A DNA stretch of 49,831 bases from Gammaproteobacteria bacterium (GTDB taxonomy: Bacteria; Pseudomonadota; Gammaproteobacteria; Pseudomonadales; Azotimanducaceae): positions 3,888 through 53,718 of the forward strand of contig VXYV01000025.1 of the NCBI GenBank assembly GCA_009845835.1, written 5' to 3'. Positions within the stretch are counted from its first letter, which is position 1; each line of letters starts with the position of its first letter. The notes beneath the pieces are model-generated. The model was not told where the DNA came from. It made no database searches and saw nothing but the letters and a program-made list of their open reading frames with translations. Below, one piece after another: positions 17,680-47,283 of this stretch. The position numbers and the translations under genes are program-made.

Positions 17680-17822
17680 TGGTTGTCAATATTGCGAAAC
17701 CGAGATCAGGTTTAAGCCTGTCTGCCTTCAGTTAGTTCACTAAGTCAATTGTTAACGGTTAGATTTTTTTTAAAGGAACGAAGCTTGGAAGCGCTTCTTA
17801 TTTGAGATTACAACGTAACACG

Positions 17823-17936
17823 ATGGAAGGCAGCACCGGCAAGTTGGGATGGTGGCTGAGTACTTATGTAGCGATTTTGTTAGTCGTTATACCGAGTAGT
17901 TGTATGTTGTTTCGTTCTAACTCCACGGAGGCATAA
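17823..17936 (+). CDS. Possible 37-residue membrane peptide after nuoN
   Basis: A short ATG frame encodes a polar N-terminus (MEGSTGKLGW), a hydrophobic segment (about residues 11-29) and a short tail. A single membrane helix is plausible. It lies 143 bases past nuoN, and its end overlaps the end of the convergent STAND gene by 20 bases. No Shine-Dalgarno is visible, and no family is recognised. It could easily be a chance frame. Confidence 0.25.
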   Translation: MEGSTGKLGWWLSTYVAILLVVIPSSCMLFRSNSTEA

Positions 17937-20900
17937 ATGAAGGACCTTTTCTTGTATGAAACAGTACATTCTTGAGCTCCCGATCCCTGTTATTTGCGTC
18001 TTTGTTGATTCGATCGACGAGGTAACCACATGCTACATTTTTCTCGTAATTGAATCCATCGTGAAAGTCAGCCAGATTTTCTGGCGATAGAGGATTAATC
18101 CAAAGTTTGATTCGAGTATCACAGAATTCTTCAATGAATCTTAAGCATCGAAACGCAACCAATCTGTCTTTTGTAGTCCAAAATTTTTTTAAGGACTTCC
18201 TACAGAGTTTATTCTGTGAGTAGGAGTCGAAACTCTTTCTGAAGACGCGAAGGAGCCATTTGTCGATAGGTGGTCGAGTAGTACATTGATCCCAAAGTTG
18301 GTCGGCTTCTGTGCTTTCATCACAATATCCCAACAAAGTGTAACCTAAAGCAAGGTGCCAAACCGATGACGCATTTAAGTATTCGTTAATTTTTTTGTAC
18401 AACCAATCAGTGTCTCCATATTTAAAAATATAACAAGTCAGGTCCAATATTTCCTTGTCGCATTTAATTTTGTCTATGTGTTTTTCGCGCAACTCAATAC
18501 AGCGTTCAGATAAGGAAAAGCGTCTGAATGGAAAAAAAGTGAATCGGTGCGAACTATACAAGCTGTGTGTCAGAGCAGTTTCGAGTTTCTCAAACATGTC
18601 TAATGAAACATTCGGGTCAACGTCAACGAGCGCTTCCATCATATTTATTACTGGCGACTCTCCCATGAAGACTCGGCCAAGACGAATAAGAGTGTGATTG
18701 TGTTTAATCCAAGAAACTAACCACTCCGTTACACATTGTTTGTCGAAATTCAATAAGTGTGTGATCGCTTCGGTCTGGTCGAATATATAGTTGTCCGAAG
18801 AGTATGATTTCTCCGTATCTAATAGGGAGAATTGTTGCTTCAAGTACTTGTTATATTCCTCAAGCACAAGCTGTTCCTTATGTCGACGATTAACTAATTC
18901 GCAGATGGCATCATGCCGTATCTTTTTTGTCAGTGCTACATCCAAGCTGAAATCACATTGCTTGAGAATAGCTATGCTCCTAACTTGTTCGTAAACTAAT
19001 TTGTAACGGAAATCTTGATACGAATTTTCACTTGGAATTTCATTTACAAATTTCGATTCCAGAAATCTATTGATCGCTTCCGTATCGCTTGAGTTGATGG
19101 CAATCACGAGACTTCGTACACGGACCTCGATGTCTTCGTGTAAAACCAGTTCTTTCGCGAGAGGCAATGTTGAAGTGTCCGAAGGATTTCGAGAGAAACG
19201 ATAGAAGTCCAACCAACACTGCAAACCTTGAGTTGACGCATTGATGATCTCTGTATTTTTGGATTGCTCAAATCTTGACGATCGGTACAAACGGTGAAAA
19301 TTGTCATAACTGTTGATTGGAAATTGAGTACACAATTGAAATCCAGTGGCTAGACGAAGTTGTGCTTGTTTTGGAGAGGTTGTGTTGTAAAGGTCAAAAA
19401 TGTGCTTAGCGACTTTGAGTCGTGAGACAACTTCTCTGTCTTCCTCTGTCGTAGGTGGACAGTTCTTGAGCCTGAGTTCCACTTCGGAGTAAACTTTTTC
19501 TCTAGACCGTTCTGTCAGAATAAACAATAGACATTCAAGATTGCGTAATATCAAGTCGAAAACGGTGTTATCAAGTTTCGATTTATTGGAGAGTCGCTGA
19601 TTCAACACCTTGATAGGACTATTCGCTAGTTCTTTCCTAAGCCACGACTTGTTTTTCAACATGTTTCTTATCACCAAATCCAACCTAGTTTTGGTACTGA
19701 AGGATTCATACGTTTGACGCTCGCTTGGTTCGCTGTTAGCAAAGGTTTTTCTGGACTTTTTAGTGTGGGAGGTTACAGCTGACAAATAACTGGATGCACG
19801 ACGTGTCACAGACGATGCGACCAAAGTTAGCAAACTTCTAGCTTTTTGAATCTCTTTGTAGCATTCATTTGTACCACGAGTCTTCCAGCGCAGCATCCAC
19901 TTAACGATATCAGCATGGTGTTTTTCTTGCATAATTGCTCTGCTAATAGACCAAGCTAGCAGAGGTTTTTGTATTGAATCGTTGGGTAAGTGGGCTAAAA
20001 TCTGAAGGGTCCTGTAGGAAAGCCAACTCCAACCAGAGTTGTCGTTGAAACATATTTCAATATTAAGTTGAGAAAACTGGTTAGATCGCTCGTGTTTATT
20101 AAATTCTGTCTGGGTCCGGGTCCACACGACCGATAACCAATCCGTGAGTCGCACCGTCAATGCTTGAAGAACATTTGGGTATGCAGCACTCGCCACGAAT
20201 GTTTTAATTAGCACTTCATCTAAAAAATGTCCTGTGTTCGCGTCCAACCAAACACTTTGGGCAAAGTCCAAAAATAAATAGGAGTCCAAACCCACTATAC
20301 GCCATAGTTCTTCAAACTCTCTCTGTGAAAAGTTTTGATGCTGTAACAAATTGTGTAAGATTGCAGATTGCCCAGGTAGTCCTATATCCGAGTCAACTAG
20401 GGAGAACGTCAAAGCTGCTATAAGAATTTGAGCACCAAAGCTATGGGATTTGAGCGGGTCTAAGAATTCACACAGTGCCTTCGAAGCAGTGTCGGCGTCG
20501 AAATTTGCGACTTCGGCTGCCAAAGTCAGTCCAATCACCATCGGAACTTTTTCTTGAACGACCTGGAATTTCCCTAGTCTATCCGAAGGTCTTAGCCACG
20601 AACCAGCACTGAGGTCGTTGATAGTAGCGACTAAATTTTCTCCTGTTACATATGTGATGTTCTTCAAAATTTCAGCTACTTCTGTACTAGATATTTTTTT
20701 ATTGAAGTCTGTTCTAATCTTTTGTCCTAATTGTGTAATTATTTCTCGAAATTCACTATCAGTAAGTCCGGCTCGTCTGTGTCGACTCTTGTAGGTTTCT
20801 TTGTGATCTTCGTATACAAGCCTAGCAGCTGTGATATCGCCACTATCTTGAAGCGCGTTGTGATGTTTGATCGATAGTTTGGCAAGTCGAGGACTTTTCA

Positions 20901-22179
20901 TTAAATCAATTACAGGTTGGGAAAACTTGCAACGAGAAATGCAAACATGTTTTAACAGAGCGTTTAATTCTTCGTCTTCAAAACCTCCCACATTTAGCTC
21001 TTCGGGTGGAGGGGTCAAGGACTGAAGCGCAAAAAGGTCTTTAGTCCACCATAATGGCCAGCAGGTGATCACGACACGATATCTGATTCCTAGTTCTGGT
21101 TCCAATAAAGGTTGTAACCAACTTGCCCAAGCTTTAAAGTGAATGTGTTGATTTAAACCATCAATAATGAACAATACACTAACTGGCTTTTGATCCGAAC
21201 TTTCCCAAAGGGTAACTTTTCGTTTCCAAAATTCTTCATTGGAATCGGATGCTCGTAAGTTTTTTGCTCCCATGCGGGCGAGTGCAGCAGCAATAGTAGT
21301 ATGGACATCTACTTCGATATTTGTGGCCGGTACATAAATCGTCAACAAATGTTGATCTATTCGGCTCAGCAATTCGTTTACCCAATTTAAGACCAGCCAA
21401 GACTTTCCCATTCCTTCATCACCCAACACAGCAAGAATCCTATCTGATTCCAAGTACCAAGATTCGATTGAATCGAGTAAGTTCTTTCTACTAATGACTA
21501 CCTCATTTGGATCGTCTAGGTTATGAATTCCTCCAAGTCGAGACTTCGAGTGTTCGACTGTTGACTGTGACTCAGTCAACCATACACGAGACATTTTGCA
21601 GGCGTTCTCATAAAACAGGCTGGAATGTTGGAGCGTTTTCTTTAGTTGATCTAGCCGACCATTAAAAGCAGATAGATTCCTAATGGTTTGTACTGCCTCT
21701 TCTGCCTTCGAATTTTCAGCAAAGTACTTTCGGCATACTATTGGTGCGTTAGCAGCAAAAACAACTAAATCACATAAGGAAGATTGTGTAGCAGAAGTGT
21801 CGAAGACACATACACCCACACCAAATCGTAGACCAACTTCATGAAGTTCGTCCCGAGCAGATGCATCCACATCCTTGGTAGAAACAAGTATCCAAGTGTC
21901 GATTTGTTTGTTTGAAGATGCAGCATCAACGAGTTTTGCTTTTAAAGTACCCACAGGAAGCGGACTCTTTACGTATCGTTTGCATTCTATGTGGACCCGA
22001 GACTTATTTATAGGATCTGATCTTACGTCAGCACCATGTTGTCTTCCAGAACTCACCAAATGGAATCTCTCAGAGGACAATTCCGAGATCATGTCGTGTG
22101 CGAATTCTTCAAAACCTAAATCGCCCGTTTCGTCCAAATCTCGTATACATTTGAGTAGATGCTTTTGTGCTGGAATCAT
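17917..22179 (-). CDS. Mrr-type nuclease fused to STAND NTPase, Avs-like defence protein
   Basis: This 1420-residue protein has three parts. Residues about 20-150 form a restriction-endonuclease-like (Mrr-type) domain with helix FEEFAHDM, GAD (D51) and ECK (E65, K67), a full catalytic set. Residues about 225-480 form a STAND-type P-loop NTPase: Walker A GDEGMGKSWL (253-262) and Walker B LFIIDGLNQ (336-344, D340). The remaining 900 residues are helical, without clear motifs, as in the sensor region of antiviral STAND (Avs) proteins. Known Avs proteins recognise a conserved phage protein, oligomerise and activate the N-terminal nuclease. This protein shares the Avs4-like layout; assignment to a named Avs type is inference. 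It is encoded alone, convergent with nuo, and starts with ATG without a clear ribosome binding site. Confidence 0.8.
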   Translation of the reverse strand: MIPAQKHLLKCIRDLDETGDLGFEEFAHDMISELSSERFHLVSSGRQHGADVRSDPINKSRVHIECKRYVKSPLPVGTLKAKLVDAASSNKQIDTWILVSTKDVDASARDELHEVGLRFGVGVCVFDTSATQSSLCDLVVFAANAPIVCRKYFAENSKAEEAVQTIRNLSAFNGRLDQLKKTLQHSSLFYENACKMSRVWLTESQSTVEHSKSRLGGIHNLDDPNEVVISRKNLLDSIESWYLESDRILAVLGDEGMGKSWLVLNWVNELLSRIDQHLLTIYVPATNIEVDVHTTIAAALARMGAKNLRASDSNEEFWKRKVTLWESSDQKPVSVLFIIDGLNQHIHFKAWASWLQPLLEPELGIRYRVVITCWPLWWTKDLFALQSLTPPPEELNVGGFEDEELNALLKHVCISRCKFSQPVIDLMKSPRLAKLSIKHHNALQDSGDITAARLVYEDHKETYKSRHRRAGLTDSEFREIITQLGQKIRTDFNKKISSTEVAEILKNITYVTGENLVATINDLSAGSWLRPSDRLGKFQVVQEKVPMVIGLTLAAEVANFDADTASKALCEFLDPLKSHSFGAQILIAALTFSLVDSDIGLPGQSAILHNLLQHQNFSQREFEELWRIVGLDSYLFLDFAQSVWLDANTGHFLDEVLIKTFVASAAYPNVLQALTVRLTDWLSVVWTRTQTEFNKHERSNQFSQLNIEICFNDNSGWSWLSYRTLQILAHLPNDSIQKPLLAWSISRAIMQEKHHADIVKWMLRWKTRGTNECYKEIQKARSLLTLVASSVTRRASSYLSAVTSHTKKSRKTFANSEPSERQTYESFSTKTRLDLVIRNMLKNKSWLRKELANSPIKVLNQRLSNKSKLDNTVFDLILRNLECLLFILTERSREKVYSEVELRLKNCPPTTEEDREVVSRLKVAKHIFDLYNTTSPKQAQLRLATGFQLCTQFPINSYDNFHRLYRSSRFEQSKNTEIINASTQGLQCWLDFYRFSRNPSDTSTLPLAKELVLHEDIEVRVRSLVIAINSSDTEAINRFLESKFVNEIPSENSYQDFRYKLVYEQVRSIAILKQCDFSLDVALTKKIRHDAICELVNRRHKEQLVLEEYNKYLKQQFSLLDTEKSYSSDNYIFDQTEAITHLLNFDKQCVTEWLVSWIKHNHTLIRLGRVFMGESPVINMMEALVDVDPNVSLDMFEKLETALTHSLYSSHRFTFFPFRRFSLSERCIELREKHIDKIKCDKEILDLTCYIFKYGDTDWLYKKINEYLNASSVWHLALGYTLLGYCDESTEADQLWDQCTTRPPIDKWLLRVFRKSFDSYSQNKLCRKSLKKFWTTKDRLVAFRCLRFIEEFCDTRIKLWINPLSPENLADFHDGFNYEKNVACGYLVDRINKDANNRDRELKNVLFHTRKGPSFMPPWS

Positions 22180-23290
22180 ATCGTAATCGTTAGTCTAAAC
22201 CTCCATTAAATTGGTACTCGGTTAATCCGCTTGAGTGTTGGCTGAGTAGTAAAGTACACTCGTGGATCTAGCTGAATAGATTGTATTGTCTTCAAGAAGC
22301 GACTGAATGTGCCTGTTTAGATTCGTGCTTCGGAAAGCGATTGATTAATCAAGATTCGTTTCTGTTCATTTTTCTCGGTTTGATCCGGTTTGAGAACAAC
22401 ATTCAAGCTCTAGTATCGGGACCACGACCCAATACTGGATCGTGTAATGCCAATGGATCGACAACATTCTTGAGAATTTCAAAGTAAAATTCGGAGATCG
22501 ACGACATAAAACAAACTCATAGAACTACTTTTCGTTACAAGTACGAGTAAATTGTGACTTTGCTTAAATTAGCTCAGATAGTGCAATCAGTATTCTCGCG
22601 AGCTACACGTGAAGCGAATCCAGAACATGATAGACAGCAACAAGTATACAAGAAATCCGAAATGCGGTATTTGGTTTAAGCGTTACCTGGCTGTCGCAGT
22701 ATCGCCCACGAAGTGTTGTTTGATTACCTACCGCAAAATTCTCAAGCGAAGGTGAGTTAGATTCTCTTGCTCTCAGCGCGCCACACGGGAACTATGCTTG
22801 CGAATGACCCGATTTAAACAAAGCACACACTACACAGATGGGCGAGAATAAGATAACAATTGAAAGCGAAGCGTTGCGATCTTGGCACAGCTTAAATCTA
22901 AATCACACGCCCATGTTGGTTTACTGTCTAAATGTATCGGTCCTTCGATTGGCCACTCTAGTTCTTTCTACGCATGGATATTAGTTGGGTATTACGTGAT
23001 CACTGAAAGACTGCACTGAGTGGGGCCGTAGAATTTGTCGTGAAACCTTCAGATTTATTGGTCTTGAGTTGCAGGGAAGCACTCAAGCACCTTGCTCACT
23101 CTACATGAAGTAGCATACCGGATTTTGAAGCGCAAGCACAAATGATACCTGTAGTTCGATTTACTTAGTATTAACACTCTCCTTCACTACAAGAAGTAGA
23201 GAAGTACCTCTTTGTATTACCTTGTCTTCCACCACTATTACATGGTTAATTGATTGTACAAAGTTCCCACAATTTGTGAGCAGACATTCA
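22180..23290. other. 1.1-kb gene-free stretch within the defence island
   Basis: No convincing gene lies here; the longest frames are under 70 codons and lack protein-like composition. The region between 22180 and about 22270 should hold the promoter of the STAND gene. One hairpin is visible at 23063-23087 (CTTGAGT pairing with ACTCAAG, inner GC/GC, loop AGGGAA), which might terminate or attenuate transcription but has no T-tract. Decayed DNA from earlier insertions is possible, but no recognisable transposase fragment was found. Confidence 0.5.
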
Positions 23291-24526
23291 TTAATCTTTT
23301 TTCCAGCTTGAATAACTGAATACATCAACTAGTGCCGCACGACAATCCCAAATGTCTTTTTCTAAACGGGTCTTAGGCTCTTTCTTGTTATATTCGTTAA
23401 ACCATGCTTGTTCGTGAATCCAACGGATAAGTCTGTCATATTTAGCGTGTAAAGAGTGCTGCGGTAACTGTGTTGCCGTACTAAACATTGTTTTAGAACG
23501 ACTATTTACTGAAACAAGACCATCTGGTCGAGCAAGGGTGAGCCAACGGCTCGCTGCAGCAGCTCCGACAGTGTAAGAAACTCCTCTTCTATGGACTCTT
23601 GAAATCCCGTAGACAGCTCTCTGTGCAACGTTTGGTAAGTCAACAAAGGGACACCCAAAAATGGGTTCAAGTTCCTGTCTTATTATCCTACGACAAACGT
23701 TAACGCTAGGTTTTCTTTCATTGTTTAATATATAAGAAGCCTGTCGCGCTTGCTTCAACCTGCCGAAGAGTCCCCATACTCCTTCGGTTTCGTTTTTTGT
23801 AGTCAATCCTCGCAAAACATAGCACTGGCGTTCGGTGAGTGTTGTCCAATCTTCAATCCTAACCACTTTATTCCCAACCAACGCAGTGTGTAACCAACTG
23901 TGTGTATCGCCGAGTACACTGAAATATTGCTCGGATCTACAGTGTTCATCATAAGTCCTCAAAGCGTCGACAAAGTTGTCCCAAGTATGAATTTCGGTTA
24001 AAGCAGGTAGCTCCTCGTGCTGCGGAATCCTTCGTGGAGATGGGGGAAACTTTGGTTTTTCCCAACTTTCCCGATATTTTTTGATGTGATGAGATGGATT
24101 TGTATCCAGTTTATTCCATATCGATTCGAACCAATACTTAGTGTCTTTTTCGGAGTCTATGACAGACTCAGAAACAAGTTCAACATTTCTTCTAAATCCC
24201 CCCAATGTCAGGTTTGGGCTGCCAACCCAACAAACATTCTTCGGCCCATAAAAGCAGTAGTACTTTGGATGGAAAATTTCGCGTGGTTCATCCGGGTAGA
24301 TTCGTAGCTCGACAGTTTCTAATGCCGCAAGTTCTTCGAGTGTGTCCGGGTAGGTGTTATTACCCGAAATTCCAACAGCCATGCGAATTTTTGCATTGCA
24401 ATTCTTCAAAACTTCTACTGCGTCGCAAGGACCAACCCAGGCTACTGCAATGTCAATTTTCGTCGCTTGGTATGCAAGTTCCTTGAATCTCTCTTCTTGT
24501 TGACGTGAATCTCCAATCAATTCCAT
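23291..24526 (-). CDS. Phospholipase D-superfamily nuclease-like protein
   Basis: The N-terminal 130 residues form one phospholipase D half-site: IDIAVAWVG (strand 1), FHPKYYCFYG with H86 and K88, and WVGSPNLTLGGFRRNVELV with N105 and E116. This HxK...GSxNxT pattern occurs in PLD-type DNases such as Nuc and the restriction enzyme BfiI, which dimerise to complete the active site. The C-terminal 280 residues are not recognised; a specificity or sensing role would be an inference. A nuclease in a defence setting is more likely than lipid hydrolysis, since there is no signal peptide. The ATG follows GGCGGA. The gene is downstream of the DUF488 pair on the same strand, 344 bases away, so it may be separate. 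Confidence 0.7.
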   Translation of the reverse strand: MELIGDSRQQEERFKELAYQATKIDIAVAWVGPCDAVEVLKNCNAKIRMAVGISGNNTYPDTLEELAALETVELRIYPDEPREIFHPKYYCFYGPKNVCWVGSPNLTLGGFRRNVELVSESVIDSEKDTKYWFESIWNKLDTNPSHHIKKYRESWEKPKFPPSPRRIPQHEELPALTEIHTWDNFVDALRTYDEHCRSEQYFSVLGDTHSWLHTALVGNKVVRIEDWTTLTERQCYVLRGLTTKNETEGVWGLFGRLKQARQASYILNNERKPSVNVCRRIIRQELEPIFGCPFVDLPNVAQRAVYGISRVHRRGVSYTVGAAAASRWLTLARPDGLVSVNSRSKTMFSTATQLPQHSLHAKYDRLIRWIHEQAWFNEYNKKEPKTRLEKDIWDCRAALVDVFSYSSWKKD

Positions 24527-24870
24527 GATTCCGCCTAAACTACCGTAAAACCTTTCTTTTTAATTGTTTGATGGCGACCGCGAATTACGATAGGCAACTA
24601 TCGCCTTCATCCATCGACGACCTCAACACTCCAGAAATTACTACTACCACGAATCCATTTAGATTATGTATGTGCTCAATTACGTCGAATTGTGCATTCA
24701 CAGTGACGAATCGCTGTGAATCTCACGTGGATTCGTTTCTTCACAGTACTCAGATCAACATCTTACTTGTAGCACTGTACTTGAATTTGTCTCTGAAGTA
24801 GTGAACGTTTGTTTCGAGCAAGTCATGGTTTATTTCATTCCCAATATTCATGATGTGTGTCAGTGTGTTT
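24527..24870. other. Gap with nested inverted repeats
   Basis: This 344-base stretch separates the phospholipase D gene from the upstream two-gene unit. It contains interleaved palindromes: ATTCACAG (24696-24703) with CTGTGAAT (24714-24721), and CGAATC (24708-24713) with GATTCG (24730-24735). These could be alternative hairpins or an operator for the downstream gene. No T-tract follows. A plus-strand frame of 77 codons crosses the area but looks non-coding. Confidence 0.4.
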
Positions 24871-25707
24871 TCATTCTTGACCAAAGCCGAAAAGGTCACG
24901 AGTTAACTCTTTCTTTGGATAAAACAATCCTAGTACGATCCATGGATTAAAGCGATCTTTCATTGTTCCCACGAATAAGTAAGTGTCTCGTGTTTCACTA
25001 CAAAGCTCGTCGAAAAACCTTTCCCGTACCCGCTGAACAGTCTCGTTTTCTGAATGTCCATCATCTATTAACTTCCAGTAAAGTGCTCCAAGTTCCCAGT
25101 CGTGAATACTGAGTTTATGTCCTTTACATCGTTCATCTTCGCACTTGAGTTTGTAATGAAATTTGTACGGCACTTTACGAGGAGGTTTTAAACTAGATTT
25201 ACGCTCTTCCCATAGCCGATGCTGTTGAAGTGCCGAGTAAAACTCTGGTTTCCAGTCCTCACTATCTGACGAAACAATGAAGTCTTCAATTTTCTGTGGT
25301 TTGAATATTCCTAGGGAAGTCTGATCCACTTTGAACTGCTCTTTAAGTTCGTCCAAAGATCTCGCCTCTTTCTTTAGTACGTATCGCTTACGCTTATCCC
25401 AGTTACCAGAATTAGGTAGTATAGGATTTCCAAGAATCTTGAGTGTATCATTGTCAGGCCGAAAACTTTCTTTGCGTATATCAGTCTGCTCATGTCGCAT
25501 AACCTCCACTTCAATCCACTGGTATTTCTTATACTGTTTTTCGTAAGGTAAATCTCGGAAGTTGATCGGATACAAACGGATGAACTCACCTTCTTCTGTT
25601 ACCCCAGCAGTACATACTAATTCATCGTACTTAGTGGAAGGAATCGGATAAGTTTTAACGGTGATTAAGACCTTTAACTTACGTTTACGCCAAGTACGAT
25701 AACTCAT
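24871..25707 (-). CDS. Unnamed protein with C-x4-C-x2-H motif, partner of DUF488 protein
   Basis: The 278-residue protein is cytoplasmic and rich in charged residues. The N-terminal part (LKVLITVKTYPIPSTKYDEL, then EEGEFIRLYPINFRDLP) looks like a beta-rich domain with a conserved family feel. A likely metal site is at C189, C194, H197 and H202 (KCEDERCKGHKLSIHDWE), followed by a helical segment and the ending FNPWIVLGLFYPKK. The family is not named here. The ATG overlaps the stop of the upstream DUF488 gene as ATGA, so the two proteins are almost certainly made together in similar amounts. The role is unknown; a nucleic-acid-binding or modification-sensing part is conceivable but unproven. 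Confidence 0.7.
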   Translation of the reverse strand: MSYRTWRKRKLKVLITVKTYPIPSTKYDELVCTAGVTEEGEFIRLYPINFRDLPYEKQYKKYQWIEVEVMRHEQTDIRKESFRPDNDTLKILGNPILPNSGNWDKRKRYVLKKEARSLDELKEQFKVDQTSLGIFKPQKIEDFIVSSDSEDWKPEFYSALQQHRLWEERKSSLKPPRKVPYKFHYKLKCEDERCKGHKLSIHDWELGALYWKLIDDGHSENETVQRVRERFFDELCSETRDTYLFVGTMKDRFNPWIVLGLFYPKKELTRDLFGFGQE

Positions 25708-26585
25708 AGGTGGTTGATCGTTAAACCGTTGACTGAGGATATCGCATCAGCCAGTGGTCGGCGGTGACAACTACGATTGTCGCTTTCAAAACACATCAAT
25801 GCCGAAGGGACATTCTCCATTACTTGAGACACAGATTGAACTAGCCGGTAATCATCTAAACTGATCCGCTTTTCATACCGTTCAAATAGTTTACGATAGG
25901 ATTGATGATTCTTCAGATTTTTTCGCTCTTTGCTTGGAACCCCCAAACTTCGTTCGTGGCAATATACGATATCAAACTTTTGGCAGAGTGATGAGAGCTG
26001 ACGTTTCGAGAAACCATATTTACGTGACAAGGCATTCGCCCTAACATCAATCAATATCTGGATGTCTTCCTTGAGAAGGTGGTTCAAGAAAGAATCAATG
26101 GATCGTCCTTCATAACCTATCGTATGAATGAGGTGATTTGCTGGCTCCGTACTGGTTTTCGACGCACTTTTCATCGAAACATTCTCGCTTTTTATGGTGT
26201 ACCAAGGATACTTTCGATAGACGTGATTAACCAAATATTTGGTGTCCCACTCTTTCACCATAGAGAACAAATCTAAAACCGCACTTTTCTGCGCGGAATT
26301 CAATGAGTCTAACTCAGCTTCGACATGTTTTCTCCCAATTTGAGACAACACAACTTTTTTGGTGTAGTTTACAATGATCTCGTTGAGTGTTAGTCGTTCT
26401 AGATCTCGGTAGAGGGTGAAAGAGAACGGCCCAAATTTGTAAGGTACAAAGTCGTAAAAACTGTTCACATCTTTCAAAATCGTCAGGTGCCGAAGCAAGA
26501 AAACCAACTTAACAAACGAAATCTTGTCAATTGGTTCCGAATAACAACTCAATAGATGAAGAACAATTTTTTCCCTCGTTAGCAA
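25704..26585 (-). CDS. DUF488 protein with N-terminal SocA/DUF4065-like domain
   Basis: Residues about 150-290 are a DUF488 domain: HTIGYEGRSIDSF (154-166), IDVRANALSRKYGFSK (179-194), the CHERSLGVPS segment and LMCFESDNRSCHRRPLA with C265, C273 and H274. The cysteine and histidine are conserved in DUF488, whose biochemical role is not established. Residues about 1-130 look like the SocA/Panacea-type (DUF4065) fold: KISFVKLVFLLRHL, then YDFVPYKFGPFSFTLYRDLERL. Such domains occur in antitoxins and proteolytic adaptors. The TTG start at 26585 is supported by GAGGT six bases upstream. It is first in a two-gene unit with the C-x4-C-x2-H protein. Fusion of the two domains is the odd feature; domain calls are by eye. 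Confidence 0.7.
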   Translation of the reverse strand: MLTREKIVLHLLSCYSEPIDKISFVKLVFLLRHLTILKDVNSFYDFVPYKFGPFSFTLYRDLERLTLNEIIVNYTKKVVLSQIGRKHVEAELDSLNSAQKSAVLDLFSMVKEWDTKYLVNHVYRKYPWYTIKSENVSMKSASKTSTEPANHLIHTIGYEGRSIDSFLNHLLKEDIQILIDVRANALSRKYGFSKRQLSSLCQKFDIVYCHERSLGVPSKERKNLKNHQSYRKLFERYEKRISLDDYRLVQSVSQVMENVPSALMCFESDNRSCHRRPLADAISSVNGLTINHL

Positions 26586-27436
26586 TCTCGTACCTCGTTA
26601 AATCTGGAATTTCTAGGTATTGAATACATGATTTGAATTACCACGAATGGCCTCTTTACATGAAACATTATAAATATATACATATGTAGTAATATTAATC
26701 ATCGCTTAACCGTGATTCAGAGAGTATTGATTTCGTTGTCTAGTGCTTTCCAGCGAACCAATATAGCAATTTCATTGGAGTACCTCGTCGAAACCAACTA
26801 TAGTTGCTTTTGAACTAGATTGATTTGCCCAATGTTTCGTCGTTGTCTGACAAACTGCTTTGGACGTAATTTTTCTGGTGTACCAGTTGGCAGAAACTTA
26901 GCCCTATTTCGTTCATCTATAGACTTAGTTAGTCCTTTCTTCTTCGGGTTAGTAGAGTTAGTACGTAAGAGCGCTGCGGTATCGATTGGGCATTCACCTT
27001 AAGTTAGGTATTCGCATTAACTCGACCCCACACTAAGGATACACCATTATAACAAATTAGTTTTGGACAATCCATATGACAGATTGCTCTATATTATTTG
27101 TAGAAACCTAGAGATGGACGGGGCAGTCGAGGATAGTAGGGACTCGTTAAATACTGTTGGCTCAATTCCAGTTTCGTGTGGGATTGCTAAAGGCGATGCA
27201 AACTGCACAATATTATAGTTGTTCCCATTTCTCATCCGACGCATGATTAACAACGAACTCTATGCATTCGTCCTCCATCTGTAGTACAAATCCAGTCCCC
27301 AGCAACATAGGGATGTTTACGAACACACTCGCGCAAAATGTGCAGACAGGTGTTTCTGCGATCGACAAGTTTGAAGACATGGTTATGCACTTCGAGGCTA
27401 ATGACTAATCCTGCAGTTTGTATAAAATCACTTGTT
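26586..27436. other. 850-bp divergent intergenic region
   Basis: The region separates the leftward DUF488 operon from the rightward methyltransferase-HNH gene and should hold both promoters. A very AT-rich patch spans about 26665-26705; its minus strand contains TATAAT (26672-26667), about 82 bases before the DUF488 start, a candidate -10 box without an obvious -35. The remaining sequence shows no convincing frame, RNA gene or repeat. The size is large for such a region and may reflect decayed DNA at an insertion junction. Confidence 0.45.
26592..26596 (-). promoter_or_regulatory. Ribosome binding site deciding the TTG start of the DUF488 gene
   Basis: On the minus strand GAGGT lies six bases before the TTG at 26585. 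No alternative ATG gives a full-length SocA-like domain, so this site fixes the start. Confidence 0.5.
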
Positions 27437-28657
27437 ATGAGTGAGGCTAATTTTACGAATCAGACGATCTGGACGGGTGACAACCTACCAATAATGCGCG
27501 GTATGAACACCGGGTGTATCGATCTGATTTATCTTGACCCACCATTCAATTCCAACACAAACTACGCTGCTCCAATAGGAAGTCAAGCTGCGGGCGCCGA
27601 GTTCAAGGATACTTGGACGTTGCAAGACGTCGACATCGCGTGGCTAGATCTGATTGAAGCAAAACATCCACGTCTTAACAAAGTCATTGACGCGGCACTG
27701 ACTTCAAGCGACAAGTCCTATCTGATTTACATGGCGGTTCGATTGCTTGAAATGAAGCGACTTTTAAAACGAACAGGATCGATTTACCTGCATTGCGATC
27801 CAACGATGAGTCACTGGTTGAAACTGCTACTAGACTGTATTTTCGGTAAAAAACAGTTTAGAAATGAGATTGTTTGGTGTTACCATGGTCCCGGCTCTCC
27901 AAAAATGAGACAATTTAATCGTAAACATGACATCATTTTTTGGTATTCCGTAGGCGAAACTTGGACTTTTAATCACGACGAAATCCGAGTACCTTACAAA
28001 GACCCAAACCAGCGTCCAAGAAAAGCTTTTGATACAGGTAACGCGTTTAACCAAAACGAAATAGAAAAGCTAAGAAAGAGAGGAAAAATTCCTGAAACTT
28101 GGTGGCAGTATCGAGTTGCGGTTAGATCAAAAAAAGAACGTGTAGGTTATCCAACTCAAAAACCTTTAGCTCTACTCCATAGGATCATACTGGCATGTAG
28201 CAACAGCGGAGGAGTCGTCTTCGATCCTTTTTGTGGTTGTGCAACAACTCTCGTGGCGGCGGACGGATTATCTCGGCGATGGGTAGGCATTGACATCTCA
28301 CCTACTGCGGTTCGTTTAGTCCGAGAACGACTTCGTGATGGAAGTACGGAAGGCGAGTATAAAGATCAATGGCGTAATGTTATTGCGAGAAACGATATAC
28401 CAGAACGTACTGACATCGGCGTTATCCTACCCTACAACCACAAAGACAACAAGCGTTCGTTATTTGCACTCCAAGAAGGAGTTTGTAATGGTTGTTCGGA
28501 GAATTATCAATTTAAAGATTTTCACATTGATCACATCATTGACAGAAAGAGTGGTGGAACTGACCACCTTAGCAACTTGCAGTTGCTTTGTGGGCACTGC
28601 AACAGCGTAAAGGGAGATCGTGGGATGGAGTACTTAATCGCCAAGTTGGCGGCATAG
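27437..28657 (+). CDS. Site-specific DNA methyltransferase with C-terminal HNH domain
   Basis: From ATG 27437 the protein has 406 residues. Residues about 1-300 are a beta-class amino-methyltransferase: IWTGDN, catalytic motif IV LDPPFNS (DPPF at 34-37, N6-adenine type), then YPTQKPLALLHRI and the AdoMet motif I DPFCGCATT (263-271). Residues about 345-405 are an HNH module: C350-x2-C353, HIDHIIDRKSGGTDHLSNLQ (DH at 365-366) and C385-x2-C388. The C-terminal zinc-bound HNH looks complete, so the protein may both mark and cut, or the HNH may read or nick DNA. The fused family is widespread in bacteria and often solitary. A longer frame starting at 27338 exists, but the added 33 residues do not look native. 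It is transcribed away from the DUF488 pair. Confidence 0.85.
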   Translation: MSEANFTNQTIWTGDNLPIMRGMNTGCIDLIYLDPPFNSNTNYAAPIGSQAAGAEFKDTWTLQDVDIAWLDLIEAKHPRLNKVIDAALTSSDKSYLIYMAVRLLEMKRLLKRTGSIYLHCDPTMSHWLKLLLDCIFGKKQFRNEIVWCYHGPGSPKMRQFNRKHDIIFWYSVGETWTFNHDEIRVPYKDPNQRPRKAFDTGNAFNQNEIEKLRKRGKIPETWWQYRVAVRSKKERVGYPTQKPLALLHRIILACSNSGGVVFDPFCGCATTLVAADGLSRRWVGIDISPTAVRLVRERLRDGSTEGEYKDQWRNVIARNDIPERTDIGVILPYNHKDNKRSLFALQEGVCNGCSENYQFKDFHIDHIIDRKSGGTDHLSNLQLLCGHCNSVKGDRGMEYLIAKLAA

Positions 28658-28707
28658 AAGAAATCAAATGTAAAGCACTCGCTTTAAGTGTGATTTCTTA
28701 AATTTTT
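28658..28707. terminator. Probable bidirectional terminator
   Basis: Between two convergent genes, AAGAAATCA (28658-28666) pairs with TGATTTCTT (28691-28699), and inside it TAAAGC (28671-28676) pairs with GCTTTA (28681-28686) around loop ACTC. A small internal loop separates the stems. Five T's follow at 28703-28707 on the plus strand. The minus-strand side runs into a CT-rich stretch. It suits both the methyltransferase gene and the 938-residue gene. Confidence 0.6.
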
Positions 28708-28711
28708 GCTA

Positions 28712-31528
28712 CTAACTGTTGTCCCCAGTTTCGTCTTGTTGTATCTCTAAGAGCATTTGTTGAAGTTCAAATTTTCCGCCCTTGAGGTACGTCTGGACAA
28801 TGTCAGCTGCGTCACGCTTACCCTCCTGACCGGAATCAAAAATGTTCTTTAACAGTATTCTCACTGACTCCTTCGGGTGTACTGGAAGCGAGAAACTGAT
28901 CATTGCCTGCCAGATTCTACAAGCCTGGATGGCCTGAGTTTTGCTAACTTTCTTTAACCACTTGAACATGTTGTAATCATTGTGTTTCAAATACGCATAT
29001 GGTGCAACAACCAAAACCATTTTTAGACATTCATCGTCAACATGGTCGATAAGCTCGGATAGCCAACAGAGATGAGAAGCAATTTCCTTCCCCACCCTCT
29101 CATTCAAATCGATGTTGTTAATCACTTTAAGCCAAAATGCCCGTATTTTTCGATCACATTGGTCATATTTTTTACCAATCTTCCAAAGGCGTATCACCGC
29201 TCTTCTTAATTCATCGCTCACGCCTCTAGCAATTAGAGCATTAACAAGTGCGTCATCGTCATCCAAAGATTCGATCCCTCGACAGTACGCAATACAAATA
29301 TTCGCAATTGCTCTTTCTTTCGCTAAGTGATGTACTTTGTCATCGTCAAGTACACGTACTATATGTCCCTTGCGTTTCAAGTGTTCGTATATGTCTTCAT
29401 TAAACCTAGAGACATAGGCATATCCTTCCATTGCACAACGCCACCAATTTAAATCCTCATTTGAAAATACTCTTTCCAAACTTTCAAGTGTCCACTCACA
29501 TGACATATAAAGTAAATTCAAAAGATAGTTTGCAAAAAGAGTCGGTACTTCGTACGAAGGTGGTTTCGTAGATGATAGCATTATGGTGTACAAAGGCTCG
29601 TAGTGTTTCCAAACTTCGGAATGGTCTTCTTTATTCGCTTTATCGGCAATACGGCATTCTCGTAAAGTTAAGGAGATCAGTGCATTTATACACTTGCCTT
29701 TAGGACTGTTGATTGCGTTAAAAACAGCGTCGTTGGATTCAAAAGACACACCAGGTTGATTTTTCAACAAATGTTCGACAATGGCTTTGGCACTTGTTAA
29801 GTATTTCGGTTCGAATGCGTGGTCATCCGATTTTACACCCGATTCGATTAAACTGGCAATTGCACCAACAACCCCATGTCGATTAGGAATCATGGGTCCA
29901 CTAAATTTTGTTTCTTTTTCTGTCCAAAATTCATCGTTAAACACTAACCGCTCACAGAAACAGAGAACTGTTCTCCAAAGGTCAATCCATGGAAGTGATT
30001 CTTTTTGTATCCATATCTCCCGGTAAGCCTCTATAATTTGATAAATATATCCTAGATGAAGGGTATCGAATGCCGAGAGCTTCTGCGAAAAGGACAGTGG
30101 CGAAGCCTTGATCGTCTCCTGAAGTGTGGCGTATAGTCCTTCAATTGGAGATTCGAAGAAATTGTTACCGTCATCTTCAAAGCGTTCTAGATAGTCAACC
30201 AGCTGACTAGTACCCATTGCTCGCAAATCTTCCACTGAGATAGGCGATGCTGGTTCGACTGTTCCCGATTCCATGTAACCTTCAAACGATGGGTGTTTTG
30301 GTTCTGCCTCAGCCATCTCCACACACTGACGATAGAGTTCATCTTCCTTCCTTCCGTGCATTTTTATTGCAGCCAACCATCCGGCCCGTTTATAAGCTAA
30401 AGTTGGTTTTCGAAAATTATCGTCTCCAGAACCAATCGACTGTATCTTAATAAGCACCGATTCCTTCTGTTCTTCGCTGAGTGAAGAATAATGGTGGTTC
30501 AAGAACATCCACAATTCATGCTTAAACTGCCAATTCCAAAAATTTGAATCAATAAGTACATCCAACAACCCTTTGAAATGCTGAAAACCGATATCCATAG
30601 CATGAATTGCGAGTCGCTTAAGTGTTATCCATTGGCACTCAAGTAGACGGGAGACATGACTGACCCCCTTCTCTGGTTCACTTCTGACCAATGAGTTTAA
30701 AGTATCCCTATACAAGTCAATCAACAAATTGATTACATCATCGCCATGGTTTTGTTCGTGCTCTTCTATGGCGGGACGCCAAATAATCGAAGAGGGGTCA
30801 TTGCCAAGAAACTCTAAAATCTTCCCAATCCGACTATCCAAGATTGGCAATATCCGATCTCCTAGTTTGGACCCAAGATTTCCGGTGATCTTCCCGAGTA
30901 CCTCTGGACATAGACTAGTCTCAATTGCCATATGAACGGCATTAACCTCGGATGGCGACGTCCCTTTCGTATTGATTTTGACCTCAAAAAGTAGTGACAC
31001 TAATTTAACAATCAATTCATCTGCACTATGGTCACAAACTTCTAATAATGCAGGTAGCCAATGGATTCCAATCGACTCACATACCAAGGAAGTGTCATAA
31101 GGATCTTTCAACCAATATTCCACAATTTCTATATCACCCTCGGAAATGAGATGAATGGGTATATTCGAAATGATTTGAGAGAATTTCCACCACGTGCGAT
31201 AATTACTGAATCCTTCTCGCTTCGCAAACTCCGTTACGGATCGTAAGATTGCTAAAAATTTCTCGCCATACAGTTCATTTTGATCGACCTTTATCTTTTT
31301 TGATGTCCTTTCTAAATAGTCTAACACTGGCCAGAACGGTACTAGGACATGGCCTTCCTTTGTTGTACGATGGGGTGTTGGATTGTCTTCTACCGCAAAG
31401 TAATTCCTTTTGTTTAGTTCATCAAACCATTCTATCCCCTCTGCCTTACTGAAGAACATAGGGGCTAAGTCTTTGTGCTTTCCAATGTGTTCCAACAGAT
31501 TGACCTTTTCAACGCTGAGTGGCTTCAT
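28712..31528 (-). CDS. Large helical protein, partner of the SIR2 protein
   Basis: The 938-residue product is soluble and almost wholly alpha-helical by eye, with leucine- and tryptophan-rich helices throughout and no signal peptide, membrane segment, Walker motif or nuclease motif. The N-terminal 70 residues (FFSKAEGIEWFDELNKRNYF, then TTKEGHVLVPFWPVLDYLER) look like a small winged-helix-type domain; the rest resembles a HEAT-like scaffold or sensor. The ATG overlaps the end of the SIR2 gene as ATGA, so both are made together. By analogy with other SIR2 defence systems this is probably the sensor or activator and SIR2 the effector. No named family is recognised. Confidence 0.7.
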   Translation of the reverse strand: MKPLSVEKVNLLEHIGKHKDLAPMFFSKAEGIEWFDELNKRNYFAVEDNPTPHRTTKEGHVLVPFWPVLDYLERTSKKIKVDQNELYGEKFLAILRSVTEFAKREGFSNYRTWWKFSQIISNIPIHLISEGDIEIVEYWLKDPYDTSLVCESIGIHWLPALLEVCDHSADELIVKLVSLLFEVKINTKGTSPSEVNAVHMAIETSLCPEVLGKITGNLGSKLGDRILPILDSRIGKILEFLGNDPSSIIWRPAIEEHEQNHGDDVINLLIDLYRDTLNSLVRSEPEKGVSHVSRLLECQWITLKRLAIHAMDIGFQHFKGLLDVLIDSNFWNWQFKHELWMFLNHHYSSLSEEQKESVLIKIQSIGSGDDNFRKPTLAYKRAGWLAAIKMHGRKEDELYRQCVEMAEAEPKHPSFEGYMESGTVEPASPISVEDLRAMGTSQLVDYLERFEDDGNNFFESPIEGLYATLQETIKASPLSFSQKLSAFDTLHLGYIYQIIEAYREIWIQKESLPWIDLWRTVLCFCERLVFNDEFWTEKETKFSGPMIPNRHGVVGAIASLIESGVKSDDHAFEPKYLTSAKAIVEHLLKNQPGVSFESNDAVFNAINSPKGKCINALISLTLRECRIADKANKEDHSEVWKHYEPLYTIMLSSTKPPSYEVPTLFANYLLNLLYMSCEWTLESLERVFSNEDLNWWRCAMEGYAYVSRFNEDIYEHLKRKGHIVRVLDDDKVHHLAKERAIANICIAYCRGIESLDDDDALVNALIARGVSDELRRAVIRLWKIGKKYDQCDRKIRAFWLKVINNIDLNERVGKEIASHLCWLSELIDHVDDECLKMVLVVAPYAYLKHNDYNMFKWLKKVSKTQAIQACRIWQAMISFSLPVHPKESVRILLKNIFDSGQEGKRDAADIVQTYLKGGKFELQQMLLEIQQDETGDNS

Positions 31529-32370
31529 GTACCTAATACCTCCGTAATTGCATTTGCACCTTGTAATATAGCGAAGTCGTTTACGATGATATTATCGGCC
31601 CATATGCTGACGATCTCATCAAGGCATTTATATGACTTGTGGTCCTTTAGAAAACCAAGCAGTTCTAGCCCAAAAGATTCCTTGTAATATGAGTACAAGT
31701 GCTCGTAGAGTGGTTTCTCTGAACTGAAAAAACCTTGTAAACAAAATAGTTTCCTTAGTTTCCTTCGAGTATTTTCTTTCGTATCAGTACCTCGTCTGAG
31801 AATGTGTTCCAATAACTCCGTTTCGTTCAGTCCATATCCTAAAAACACAACCGTCTTCTTCTTAAAGAGATGAGTCAAAAAGGCTTGGACATTCTTGTTA
31901 TCGTAGTGTTCTAGGTATTGTCTGGTTGTGACAATCATGGTTTCGGGCTTTTCGATCGAACCATGTAAGTGTATTACGTTTCCTGTATCATCTAAATCAA
32001 CTGAATGTAATTCATTAGTCGACATAACACGTATGCCTTGTTGTTCTATTATGGAACTATTTTTAGATTTCGGCATGATCGGTTTTAAACAAAGATCGTA
32101 GTTCGTTGTTACAAAAGTACAACCTATGGAGTTTAGTGTTTGGTAGATCGCGCTCTCTTTACTAGTCGACTTAAAGTATTTAACAATTTCTAGATTGTCG
32201 TCTATTATTTTTGCAATAGATAAAATCGTTCTGGGTTCAAGTTTCTTGAGTGATTGGGTTTCGTTGTAATTTAGTAATTTCTTGCATGCCAAATCATCTA
32301 GAACCCATTTTGCAAACTGGTCCCAGGTCGGTATTTTCATACTTTTAGATACACCTGCTCCGATAAACAT
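31525..32370 (-). CDS. SIR2-family protein, predicted NAD-degrading effector
   Basis: From ATG 32370 the protein has 281 residues and a SIR2 Rossmann fold: FIGAGVSKS (2-10) for NAD binding, FVTTNYD (86-92) with the conserved N90 and D92, HLHGSIE with catalytic H136, and VFLGYGLNETEL. Zinc-binding cysteines of protein deacetylases are absent, which fits the defence SIR2 group that hydrolyses NAD to stop phage growth. The ATG start removes part of the first strand. The frame stays open to 32496, and residues just before the ATG read PLPPEVKQAAELGELI, as expected for this family, yet no ATG, GTG or TTG occurs there. The gene is the first of a pair with the 938-residue protein. Confidence 0.8.
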   Translation of the reverse strand: MFIGAGVSKSMKIPTWDQFAKWVLDDLACKKLLNYNETQSLKKLEPRTILSIAKIIDDNLEIVKYFKSTSKESAIYQTLNSIGCTFVTTNYDLCLKPIMPKSKNSSIIEQQGIRVMSTNELHSVDLDDTGNVIHLHGSIEKPETMIVTTRQYLEHYDNKNVQAFLTHLFKKKTVVFLGYGLNETELLEHILRRGTDTKENTRRKLRKLFCLQGFFSSEKPLYEHLYSYYKESFGLELLGFLKDHKSYKCLDEIVSIWADNIIVNDFAILQGANAITEVLGT

Positions 32371-32851
32371 AATCAGTTCTCCAAGCTCTGCAGCTTGTTT
32401 TACTTCTGGAGGAAGAGGTATAAATTCGTTTAGTGGTTGACAACCATTACTATTGTTTGAGAGTTGTGTAATAGTGATCGGTCTTCTAATTGATTGCTAT
32501 GTTCTTATTTTAAGGTCGCCAGTCTGTTTACTTTGGTGTAAGCTGTGGGTCGTCGGTCGTTATCGGACCGATATGGATGGGAAGTTCGGCTTTAAACGAA
32601 CAGGTATACTATCTCCCGAATTGAAAGGGAGTCGTAGGCTTTTTCGATCTTGATGTGGACGAAGGATCGTGTTTTGGGTGTGTTACAACCCTTGAACTAG
32701 CTATTCGACTTGGTCCACAGCGGTCTCATACTTTCTCGCGTGGACTCTTCAGTGTTGTGCTAGTACCCCTGCACTAATCGAATGGTTTGTTTATGTAAAG
32801 TAGTGATTCTCTAAAATTGTTGTAACCAAAACGATGTAACGTTAGATACAA
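32371..32851. other. Intergenic region with in-frame upstream extension of the SIR2 gene
   Basis: On the minus strand, 32371-32496 is open in the SIR2 frame and looks coding, at least up to about 32435. In another frame ATG at 32447 encodes only MVVNH before a stop. The same spot holds a palindrome, TGGTTG-A-CAACCA (about 32433-32445). The rest, up to the apaG start, shows no gene and should contain the apaG promoter, and probably that of the SIR2 pair near 32500. Confidence 0.45.
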
Positions 32852-33232
32852 GTGAAGACCAAACAAAACATTGCAGTTGACGTAGACACCACTTTCCTGA
32901 GAGACTATTCAGATCCCGAAGAATTGAGGTTTGTTTTTGCCTACCACATCAAGATAACTAACAATAGTTCTTCGCTGTCGAAACTCTTGGAACGACATTG
33001 GAAGATTTCACATGGCGGTAGGTTTGTCGAGTCAGTCGATGGTACTGGTGTGGTGGGAGAGACCCCACTTCTCTCACCGGGTGAATCCTTTGAATATACC
33101 AGTGGCGCGGTCCTGGAAACTCCGTTTGGTACGATGGAAGGGCACTATACCTTCGAAGACATGCAAGGACGGCGTTTCGATGTGCCTATTCCGCCTTTTA
33201 TCCTCTCAACTTCAGATGAGACTCTGAATTGA
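32852..33232 (+). CDS. apaG: ApaG (CorD) domain protein
   Basis: The 126-residue protein is recognised by GVVGETPLLSPGESFEYTSG and LETPFGTMEGHYTFED, the ApaG fibronectin-III-like core. ApaG is linked to magnesium/cobalt resistance phenotypes and diadenosine tetraphosphate metabolism in enterobacteria, but its biochemical role is unclear. The usual partners ksgA and apaH are absent here; instead it precedes a TRAP transporter. The start is GTG at 32852; no strong Shine-Dalgarno is visible. Codon use is like that of the nuo genes, so this marks the right border of the defence island. Confidence 0.93.
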   Translation: MKTKQNIAVDVDTTFLRDYSDPEELRFVFAYHIKITNNSSSLSKLLERHWKISHGGRFVESVDGTGVVGETPLLSPGESFEYTSGAVLETPFGTMEGHYTFEDMQGRRFDVPIPPFILSTSDETLN

Positions 33233-47207: not shown

Positions 47208-47283
47208 TGGTGGCCAGGGGCAGAATTGAACTGCCGACACGAGGATTTTCAGTCCACTGCTCTACCGACTGAGCTACCTGGCC
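47208..47283 (-). tRNA. tRNA-Phe (anticodon GAA)
   Basis: Read on the minus strand, this 76-base sequence folds into a standard cloverleaf: acceptor GGCCAGG pairing with CCTGGCC, D-arm AGCTCAGTCGGTAGAGCA, anticodon loop CTGAAAA with GAA, T-arm with GTTCAATTC and encoded CCA end. Sequence and anticodon match bacterial tRNA-Phe. The tRNA sits between the copper lipoprotein gene and the MvaI-type restriction-modification system. Confidence 0.97.

Follow-up and report, generated by a model that had tools for sequence, protein, structure and literature searches.

PDC-M19, a catalogued candidate defence gene pair that joins a DUF488 protein to a predicted tandem-OB partner, as a possible toxin-antitoxin-like antiphage module

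Two genes occupy positions 24871 to 26585 of the window (the whole stretch of 49,831 nt that was analyzed), both on the minus strand and sharing four bases, as the earlier note had described. Gene A (25704..26585; 293 aa) opens with a TTG codon, and gene B (24871..25707; 278 aa) follows it directly, with a single ATGA (25704..25707, minus strand) supplying the TGA stop of A and the ATG start of B; both frames are those of the open reading frame list. The TTG start of A is supported by the conservation of Arg4, which is retained in 91% of 70 aligned proteins, and a GAGG resembling a ribosome-binding site lies 7 bases upstream of it (26593..26596, minus strand). When compared with the PADLOC profiles, A matched PDC-M19A (PDLC04505; E = 3.2e-81, residues 1-289 on profile positions 1-288 of 294) and B matched PDC-M19B (PDLC04508; E = 1.7e-87, positions 3-266 of 269), and the two genes are adjacent, as the PDC-M19 definition demands. 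Judged by these profile matches, the window pair is an ordinary member of PDC-M19, an uncharacterized candidate already in the catalogue; the earlier note had known of no named defence system with this composition. The prefix PDC stands for 'phage defence candidate' in the cited passage of PMC11514479; the PDC-M19 entry in PADLOC-DB carries no functional description, and we found no functional paper on it in literature listings that covered PDC-M19 itself, phage defence candidates, DUF488 in phage defence and DUF488 since 2019. Both families are also present in PHROGs (phrog_25907 and phrog_14939), with function unassigned there.

The C-terminal part of A is a DUF488 domain (PF04343; residues 162-281, 25743..26102, minus strand), as delimited by the Pfam match (E = 6.9e-22; 78.8 bits with a cut-off of 22.2) and by conservation across the 70 aligned proteins. 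Asp180, Arg182, Cys265, Glu267 and Cys273-His274-Arg275 are identical in all 70. The N-terminal domain, which is optional in the family, spans approximately residues 1-140 (26166..26585, minus strand) and is SocA-like or winged-helix-like. The earlier note had placed the DUF488 domain behind a SocA/DUF4065-like domain; the DUF488 half of this reading is certain, and the SocA half is sub-threshold, with SocA_Panacea (PF13274) scoring 17.6 bits for a cut-off of 25.7. PF13274 matches at E = 0.1 or better occur in 17 of the 70 family members (best 3.2e-4). At the position of the GPV signature, window A reads GPF, the second residue being P in 30/70 and C in 33/70 of the aligned proteins; with PF13274 below cut-off and the signature absent, we rejected membership of A in Panacea. 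As a separate observation, residues 23-134 of A match positions 432-546 of a 554-position profile for type I specificity subunits (PDLC03184; 6.7e-10), and the same domain may therefore end some HsdS proteins. The model named 'Active DUF488-N3 subclade' is matched by 63 of the 70 relatives at E = 0.1 or better; window A itself scores 17.2 bits, below the cut-off of 27.

The AlphaFold2 model of A has a mean pLDDT of 93.8. The two best Foldseek matches for this model as a whole (2.0e-4 and 3.5e-4) are chains of a Mycobacterium DarTG complex, which we take to be DarG's toxin-binding domain. SonM and tetrapyrrole methylases, PTP-type phosphatases and MarR winged helices matched more weakly, each above 1e-3, and these would fit a Rossmann-like DUF488 half joined to a winged-helix N-terminal half. 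A sequence search of the PDB with A returned two matches, both at chance level.

Protein B had no match at E = 0.1 in Pfam or NCBIfam and none in a sequence search of the PDB. Its AlphaFold2 model (mean pLDDT 91.0) matched, by Foldseek, RPA (2.5e-6), the HIN-200 domains of p204 and IFI16, Teb1 and POT1, as well as LEF-3 in a viral structure library. B is accordingly predicted to consist of tandem OB folds; the TM-scores of the matches below 1e-3 are low (0.21-0.34 of the query), which keeps this assignment a prediction. The residues C189, C194, H197 and H202, reported earlier as a metal-site motif, do lie at the named positions (C189-x4-C194-x2-H197-x4-H202; 25102..25143, minus strand), but they are kept in just 31, 31, 33 and 3 of 74 aligned proteins, respectively. 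The immediately following D203-W204-E205 is invariant (74/74), and a C-x4-C-x2-H-x4-H metal site was rejected as a feature of the B family.

The pair lies within an island between nuoN and dctP (17680..33228, no strand), delimited by comparison with relatives and by G+C content. These two genes are 15.5 kb apart in the window, as compared with about 1.2 kb in four relatives of the same genus that lack the island (L135, L136, L138 and L140) and 3.7 kb in L137; in six other same-genus stretches the order differs or dctP is out of reach (12 stretches compared, 11 usable), and at 1e-8 neither A nor B had a match in any of the same-genus stretches. The G+C content of the island is 0.412, versus 0.455 and 0.446 in its flanks. 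Neither flanking direct repeats nor a tRNA marks an integration site: two short imperfect direct repeats are both inside the island, and the sole tRNA (47208-47283) is outside it. The neighbours named for the pair were confirmed by Pfam as a PLD-like protein (23291-24526; PLDc_2, 1.6e-6, with a weak likeness to NgoFVII-type nucleases that falls below cut-off) and an N6_N4 methyltransferase-HNH protein. The island also holds a 1420-aa protein with Mrr_cat followed by NACHT (17917-22179; Pfam, with a weak PADLOC match at 0.023) and a Dsr1-like sirtuin split into two overlapping genes (28712-32370), a SIR2 part of 281 aa and a C-terminal part of 938 aa, which correspond to consecutive segments of a single Dsr1 profile (PDLC04166, PADLOC).

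We surveyed B loci with profiles built for this analysis, obtaining 189 distinct loci: 80 named genome loci, 45 from two phylum surveys, 39 on viral contigs, 22 early genome, plasmid and phage loci, and 3 additional loci on plasmids. The 80 named genome loci are the best 80 of at least 572 confirmed and thus biased towards close relatives. Repeats were dropped (L003, equal to L002; L013, equal to L012; L191-L196), some viral loci look like near-duplicates (L161/L163 and L162/L164/L165), and two loci in which no B reading frame matched (L242 and L243) stand outside the 189. Five loci are truncated where their contig stops (L044, L085, L102, L183 and L189), leaving 184 assessable. A DUF488 gene adjoins B in 180 of these 184, the best 80 of at least 572 included, and in the four exceptions (L020, L055, L091 and L217) B has a different neighbour or no neighbour at all; such pairing is far in excess of chance. 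The reverse search gave the same picture: among 296 Bacteroidota genomes, A had 21 matches at 1e-30, 19 full-length and 2 partial, and all 19 full-length ones adjoin B or a B remnant. Distance matrices of A and B over 63 loci are correlated (r = 0.88; 0/999 permutations as high), which shows co-inheritance of the two proteins, not contact between them.

Genomes with a B match numbered 10 of 398 in the window's phylum, 20 of 296 in the phylum of L066 and 47 of 400 in that of L091, where 34 matches are at E < 1e-18 and 13 are weaker. Nine of these 13 (G515, G531, G603, G611, G690, G725, G739, G808 and G813) match in two pieces near 1e-10 and may represent a distant B-like family. B also occurs in 22 plasmid records, Sulfolobales included, in 7 Gordonia phage records and on 39 viral contigs; a search of viral contigs for the archaeal B gave no confirmed relative. 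The module is mobile and spread over bacteria, archaeal and bacterial plasmids, and phages, and the prospect that the pair would prove rare, unlinked or housekeeping elsewhere, which would have spoken against a dedicated defence system, was not borne out.

The survey uncovered two gene layouts. All 119 loci whose A carries the N-terminal domain (121 by a deeper profile) are co-directional with B, and in the 123 loci found by the deeper profile, repeats of a locus included, the domain is full length in every one. In 38 of the 180 loci the DUF488 gene is instead convergent with B, and none of these carries the N-terminal domain by either profile; both counts include the best 80 of at least 572. 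Of the 38 convergent pairs, 33 overlap at their 3' ends, the shared length being exactly 44 bases in 11 cases and exactly 47 in 6, and since stop codons set these ends the overlap is unaffected by the choice of start. Of two outliers, one (L190, +361) reflects a disrupted B and the other (L212, -249) the reading frame picked. Among viral loci, 24 of 39 are convergent. The remaining loci are co-directional and without the N-terminal domain, two of them (L078 and L083) being cut by a contig end.

The partner of B varies as well. According to Pfam, the DUF488 protein bears HTH_3 in a Streptomyces plasmid, and ParB_N with HTH_ParB in a Saccharolobus plasmid. ASCH replaces DUF488 in two loci, L055 (25.6 bits with a cut-off of 21.2, the ASCH reading frame running into that of B) and L091 (a ParB_N and ASCH protein, ASCH at 31.0 bits and above cut-off), and perhaps in a third, L217, where the neighbour of B has ASCH at 17.3 bits, below cut-off. 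No DUF488 match was found in the genomes of these three loci, all of which are drafts or of unstated completeness. The Sulfolobus plasmid pSOG2 (L020) has B with neither DUF488 nor ASCH, and its whole record is without a DUF488 match; the gene after B there (8858-9364) resembles a PD-(D/E)XK nuclease by eye, with no significant Pfam match.

Defence genes accompany the pair at several sites. A second copy of the module, on another contig of the genome from which the window comes (L147, 4851-10427) and with its B split over two frames, is flanked by SoFic and HEC-05 matches, with an NsnB-like gene near. At the closest relative among the matches listed (L025; 71% B identity), PDC-S68 adjoins, in two reading frames, and in L065, L069 and L072 the pair is flanked by hsdR and hsdS, all on one strand. 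Homologues of HsdR, HsdS and HsdM together occur within 5 kb in 7 of the 80 named loci (the best 80 of at least 572) and in 1 of the 39 viral loci. Among 113 near neighbours (of 136 eligible; 49,464 residues) we counted ResIII 10 times, SWI2_SNF2 7 times, and Methylase_S and HSDR_N 5 times each, whereas 113 far genes (of 221; 38,009 residues), located at least 5.5 kb away, had no restriction family with two or more members among the first 25 families listed. In the Gordonia phage Eviarto, the first base of B is also the final base of the immunity repressor gene, and the DUF488 gene is convergent with B and separated from the integrase by two genes; the repressor-to-integrase region of phages often holds genes expressed in the lysogen. 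Plasmid copies in Pseudomonas, Massilia, Burkholderia and Arthrobacter lie amid metal-resistance, insertion-sequence or plasmid genes. The defence role proposed in the earlier note thus gains from restriction and defence neighbours at several sites and from the comparison of near with far genes, but not from the several plasmid copies without such company. Because the pair is widespread, tightly linked and found in the company of defence genes, a dedicated defence role is likely on these genomic grounds.

Disruption of the module was one-sided: B is disrupted and A intact in 11 distinct loci (L002, L012, L048, L050, L064, L150, L190, L214, L230, L238 and L242), and A is disrupted and B intact in none of the 191 loci scored, the best 80 of at least 572 included. 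A was scored as intact by the DUF488 model at 75% coverage. In five of these loci (L050, L064, L214, L230 and L238) a single in-frame stop interrupts B, at five different places. The count takes L238 and L239, equal in coordinates and scores, as one disruption, excludes L243, in which B runs off the contig, and includes two edge cases, L012 (two frames) and L150 (insertion of IS66 and recombinase genes); the eleven include the other copy of the module carried by the genome of the window. Some of the frameshifts in B may be assembly errors, stop substitutions less so. No locus with A lost and B kept was seen among those found through B, and in one Bacteroidota genome (G978), where nothing matched B, DUF488 is matched in part and with two stops. 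The ratio of 11 to 0 suggests that B is the costly arm of the module, although phage selection against B could produce the same one-sided loss.

Our best explanation, a tentative one to which we give somewhat less than an even chance, is that the PDC-M19 pair is a toxin-antitoxin-like antiphage module in which A restrains a costly, nucleic-acid-binding B. We infer that such a module would guard cells and prophages from phages and other mobile DNA: the tandem-OB protein B would bind nucleic acid and be harmful or costly once released, A would neutralize it, and infection would disturb the hold of A and free B. The N-terminal part of A (SocA-like, Xre-type HTH, ParB-HTH or none) might bind B or DNA and have a regulatory role, and DUF488, the constant partner, would be a Cys/Arg/Asp enzyme of the rhodanese/phosphatase type that undoes the action of B, perhaps by stripping a modification from a nucleotide or nucleic acid. 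This explanation is favoured by the PDC-M19A and PDC-M19B matches, the linkage and matrix correlation, the tandem-OB and DarTG structural matches and the one-sided loss, and also by the exchangeable HTH_3 and ParB modules, the island and type I restriction context, the near/far comparison and the repressor overlap in Eviarto. Counting against it, the convergent layout of the 38 loci is one that toxin-antitoxin pairs do not usually show, few loci (the 7 of the best 80 of at least 572) are near type I restriction homologues, and plasmid copies sit amid metal-resistance and insertion-sequence genes.

The wiring might also be reversed, with B as the nucleic-acid sensor, the DUF488 domain of A as the effector enzyme attacking phage DNA or RNA ends, and the N-terminal module as an adaptor. 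B does resemble OB proteins that bind single- and double-stranded DNA, HIN-200 DNA sensors among them, and DUF488 has its invariant Cys/Arg/Asp set as well as the similarity of most relatives, window A lying below the cut-off, to the active N3 subclade. A survey from 2023 on the rhodanese-phosphatase superfamily reportedly predicts DNA-end processing for this DUF488 clade. Nonetheless, we consider reversed wiring rather unlikely, as it predicts that A would be lost as frequently as B, and substitution by ASCH suits a regulator or eraser better than a catalytic effector.

That the pair serves solely as an addiction module of plasmids and phages, with no role in defence, agrees with the 22 plasmid records and 39 viral contigs, with toxin-antitoxin-like wiring and with the several plasmid copies that have no defence neighbours; the defence genes near the window pair, near the second copy and near the closest relative among the matches listed, together with the restriction operons that contain the pair, make it improbable. 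An accessory role in DNA repair or recombination, outside any conflict, would suit OB folds as tools for single-strand DNA work and the RecT or exonuclease genes within 8 kb of the pair in one phage and one plasmid, but the patchy presence in three phyla (10/398, 20/296 and 47/400 genomes) and the repeated loss of B leave it very little likelihood.

PDC-M19 might represent a new toxin-antitoxin-like class of immunity, a proposal that we regard as doubtful at present. It would combine a tandem-OB effector with an exchangeable, DarG-like keeper enzyme that both binds the effector and reverses its product; the keeper could be ASCH, or else DUF488, either alone or combined with a SocA-like, Xre-type HTH or ParB-CTPase module. 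The layouts are two: an operon with translational coupling, and a convergent pair whose transcripts, given the 3' overlap, could be antisense to one another. The passages of related literature that were consulted do not mention the tandem-OB prediction, the existence of two layouts, the variants with ASCH or ParB beside B, or the one-sided loss; part of these findings may be described in the 2023 rhodanese-phosphatase survey. DUF488 is an orphan domain, for which a nearly constant partner, itself predicted to have a nucleic-acid-binding fold, offers a context open to testing. Provided that B is a restrained effector, replacement of DUF488 by ASCH would indicate which chemistry the keeper reverses. 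The module occurs in three sampled phyla, in phages and on plasmids of both archaea and bacteria, and yet we found no function for it in the literature.

Among known systems, DarTG resembles the pair in structure: the best match of the A model is a chain of the Mycobacterium DarTG complex, and both systems would join an enzyme domain and a partner-binding domain in one antitoxin. DarTG is defined by an ADP-ribosyltransferase toxin and a macrodomain antitoxin; A has no macrodomain match and B no ADP-ribosyltransferase match (Pfam, E = 0.1), B being modelled as OB folds. Panacea/SocA (PF13274) shares with window A a weak profile match and a G-P pair, but A stays below its cut-off, and the GPV signature described for Panacea in the cited part of PMC8832971 reads GPF. 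The DUF488 domain of A also matches the DUF488-like subunits of another PADLOC candidate, PDC-M45 (M45B, 1.1e-11; M45C, 7.3e-14), far more weakly than A matches M19A (3.2e-81). In the cited part of PMC12704722, which concerns archaeal ParB-CTPase fusions with DUF488-HTH, an archaeal DUF488-HTH fusion is reported to bind CTP; the Saccharolobus plasmid has a ParB_N-HTH_ParB-DUF488 gene directly before its B gene, whereas window A has the SocA-like part in the place of ParB. With PDC-M19 (PADLOC-DB 2.0, two genes), the window pair shares both adjacent genes nearly end to end, and nothing excludes its membership.
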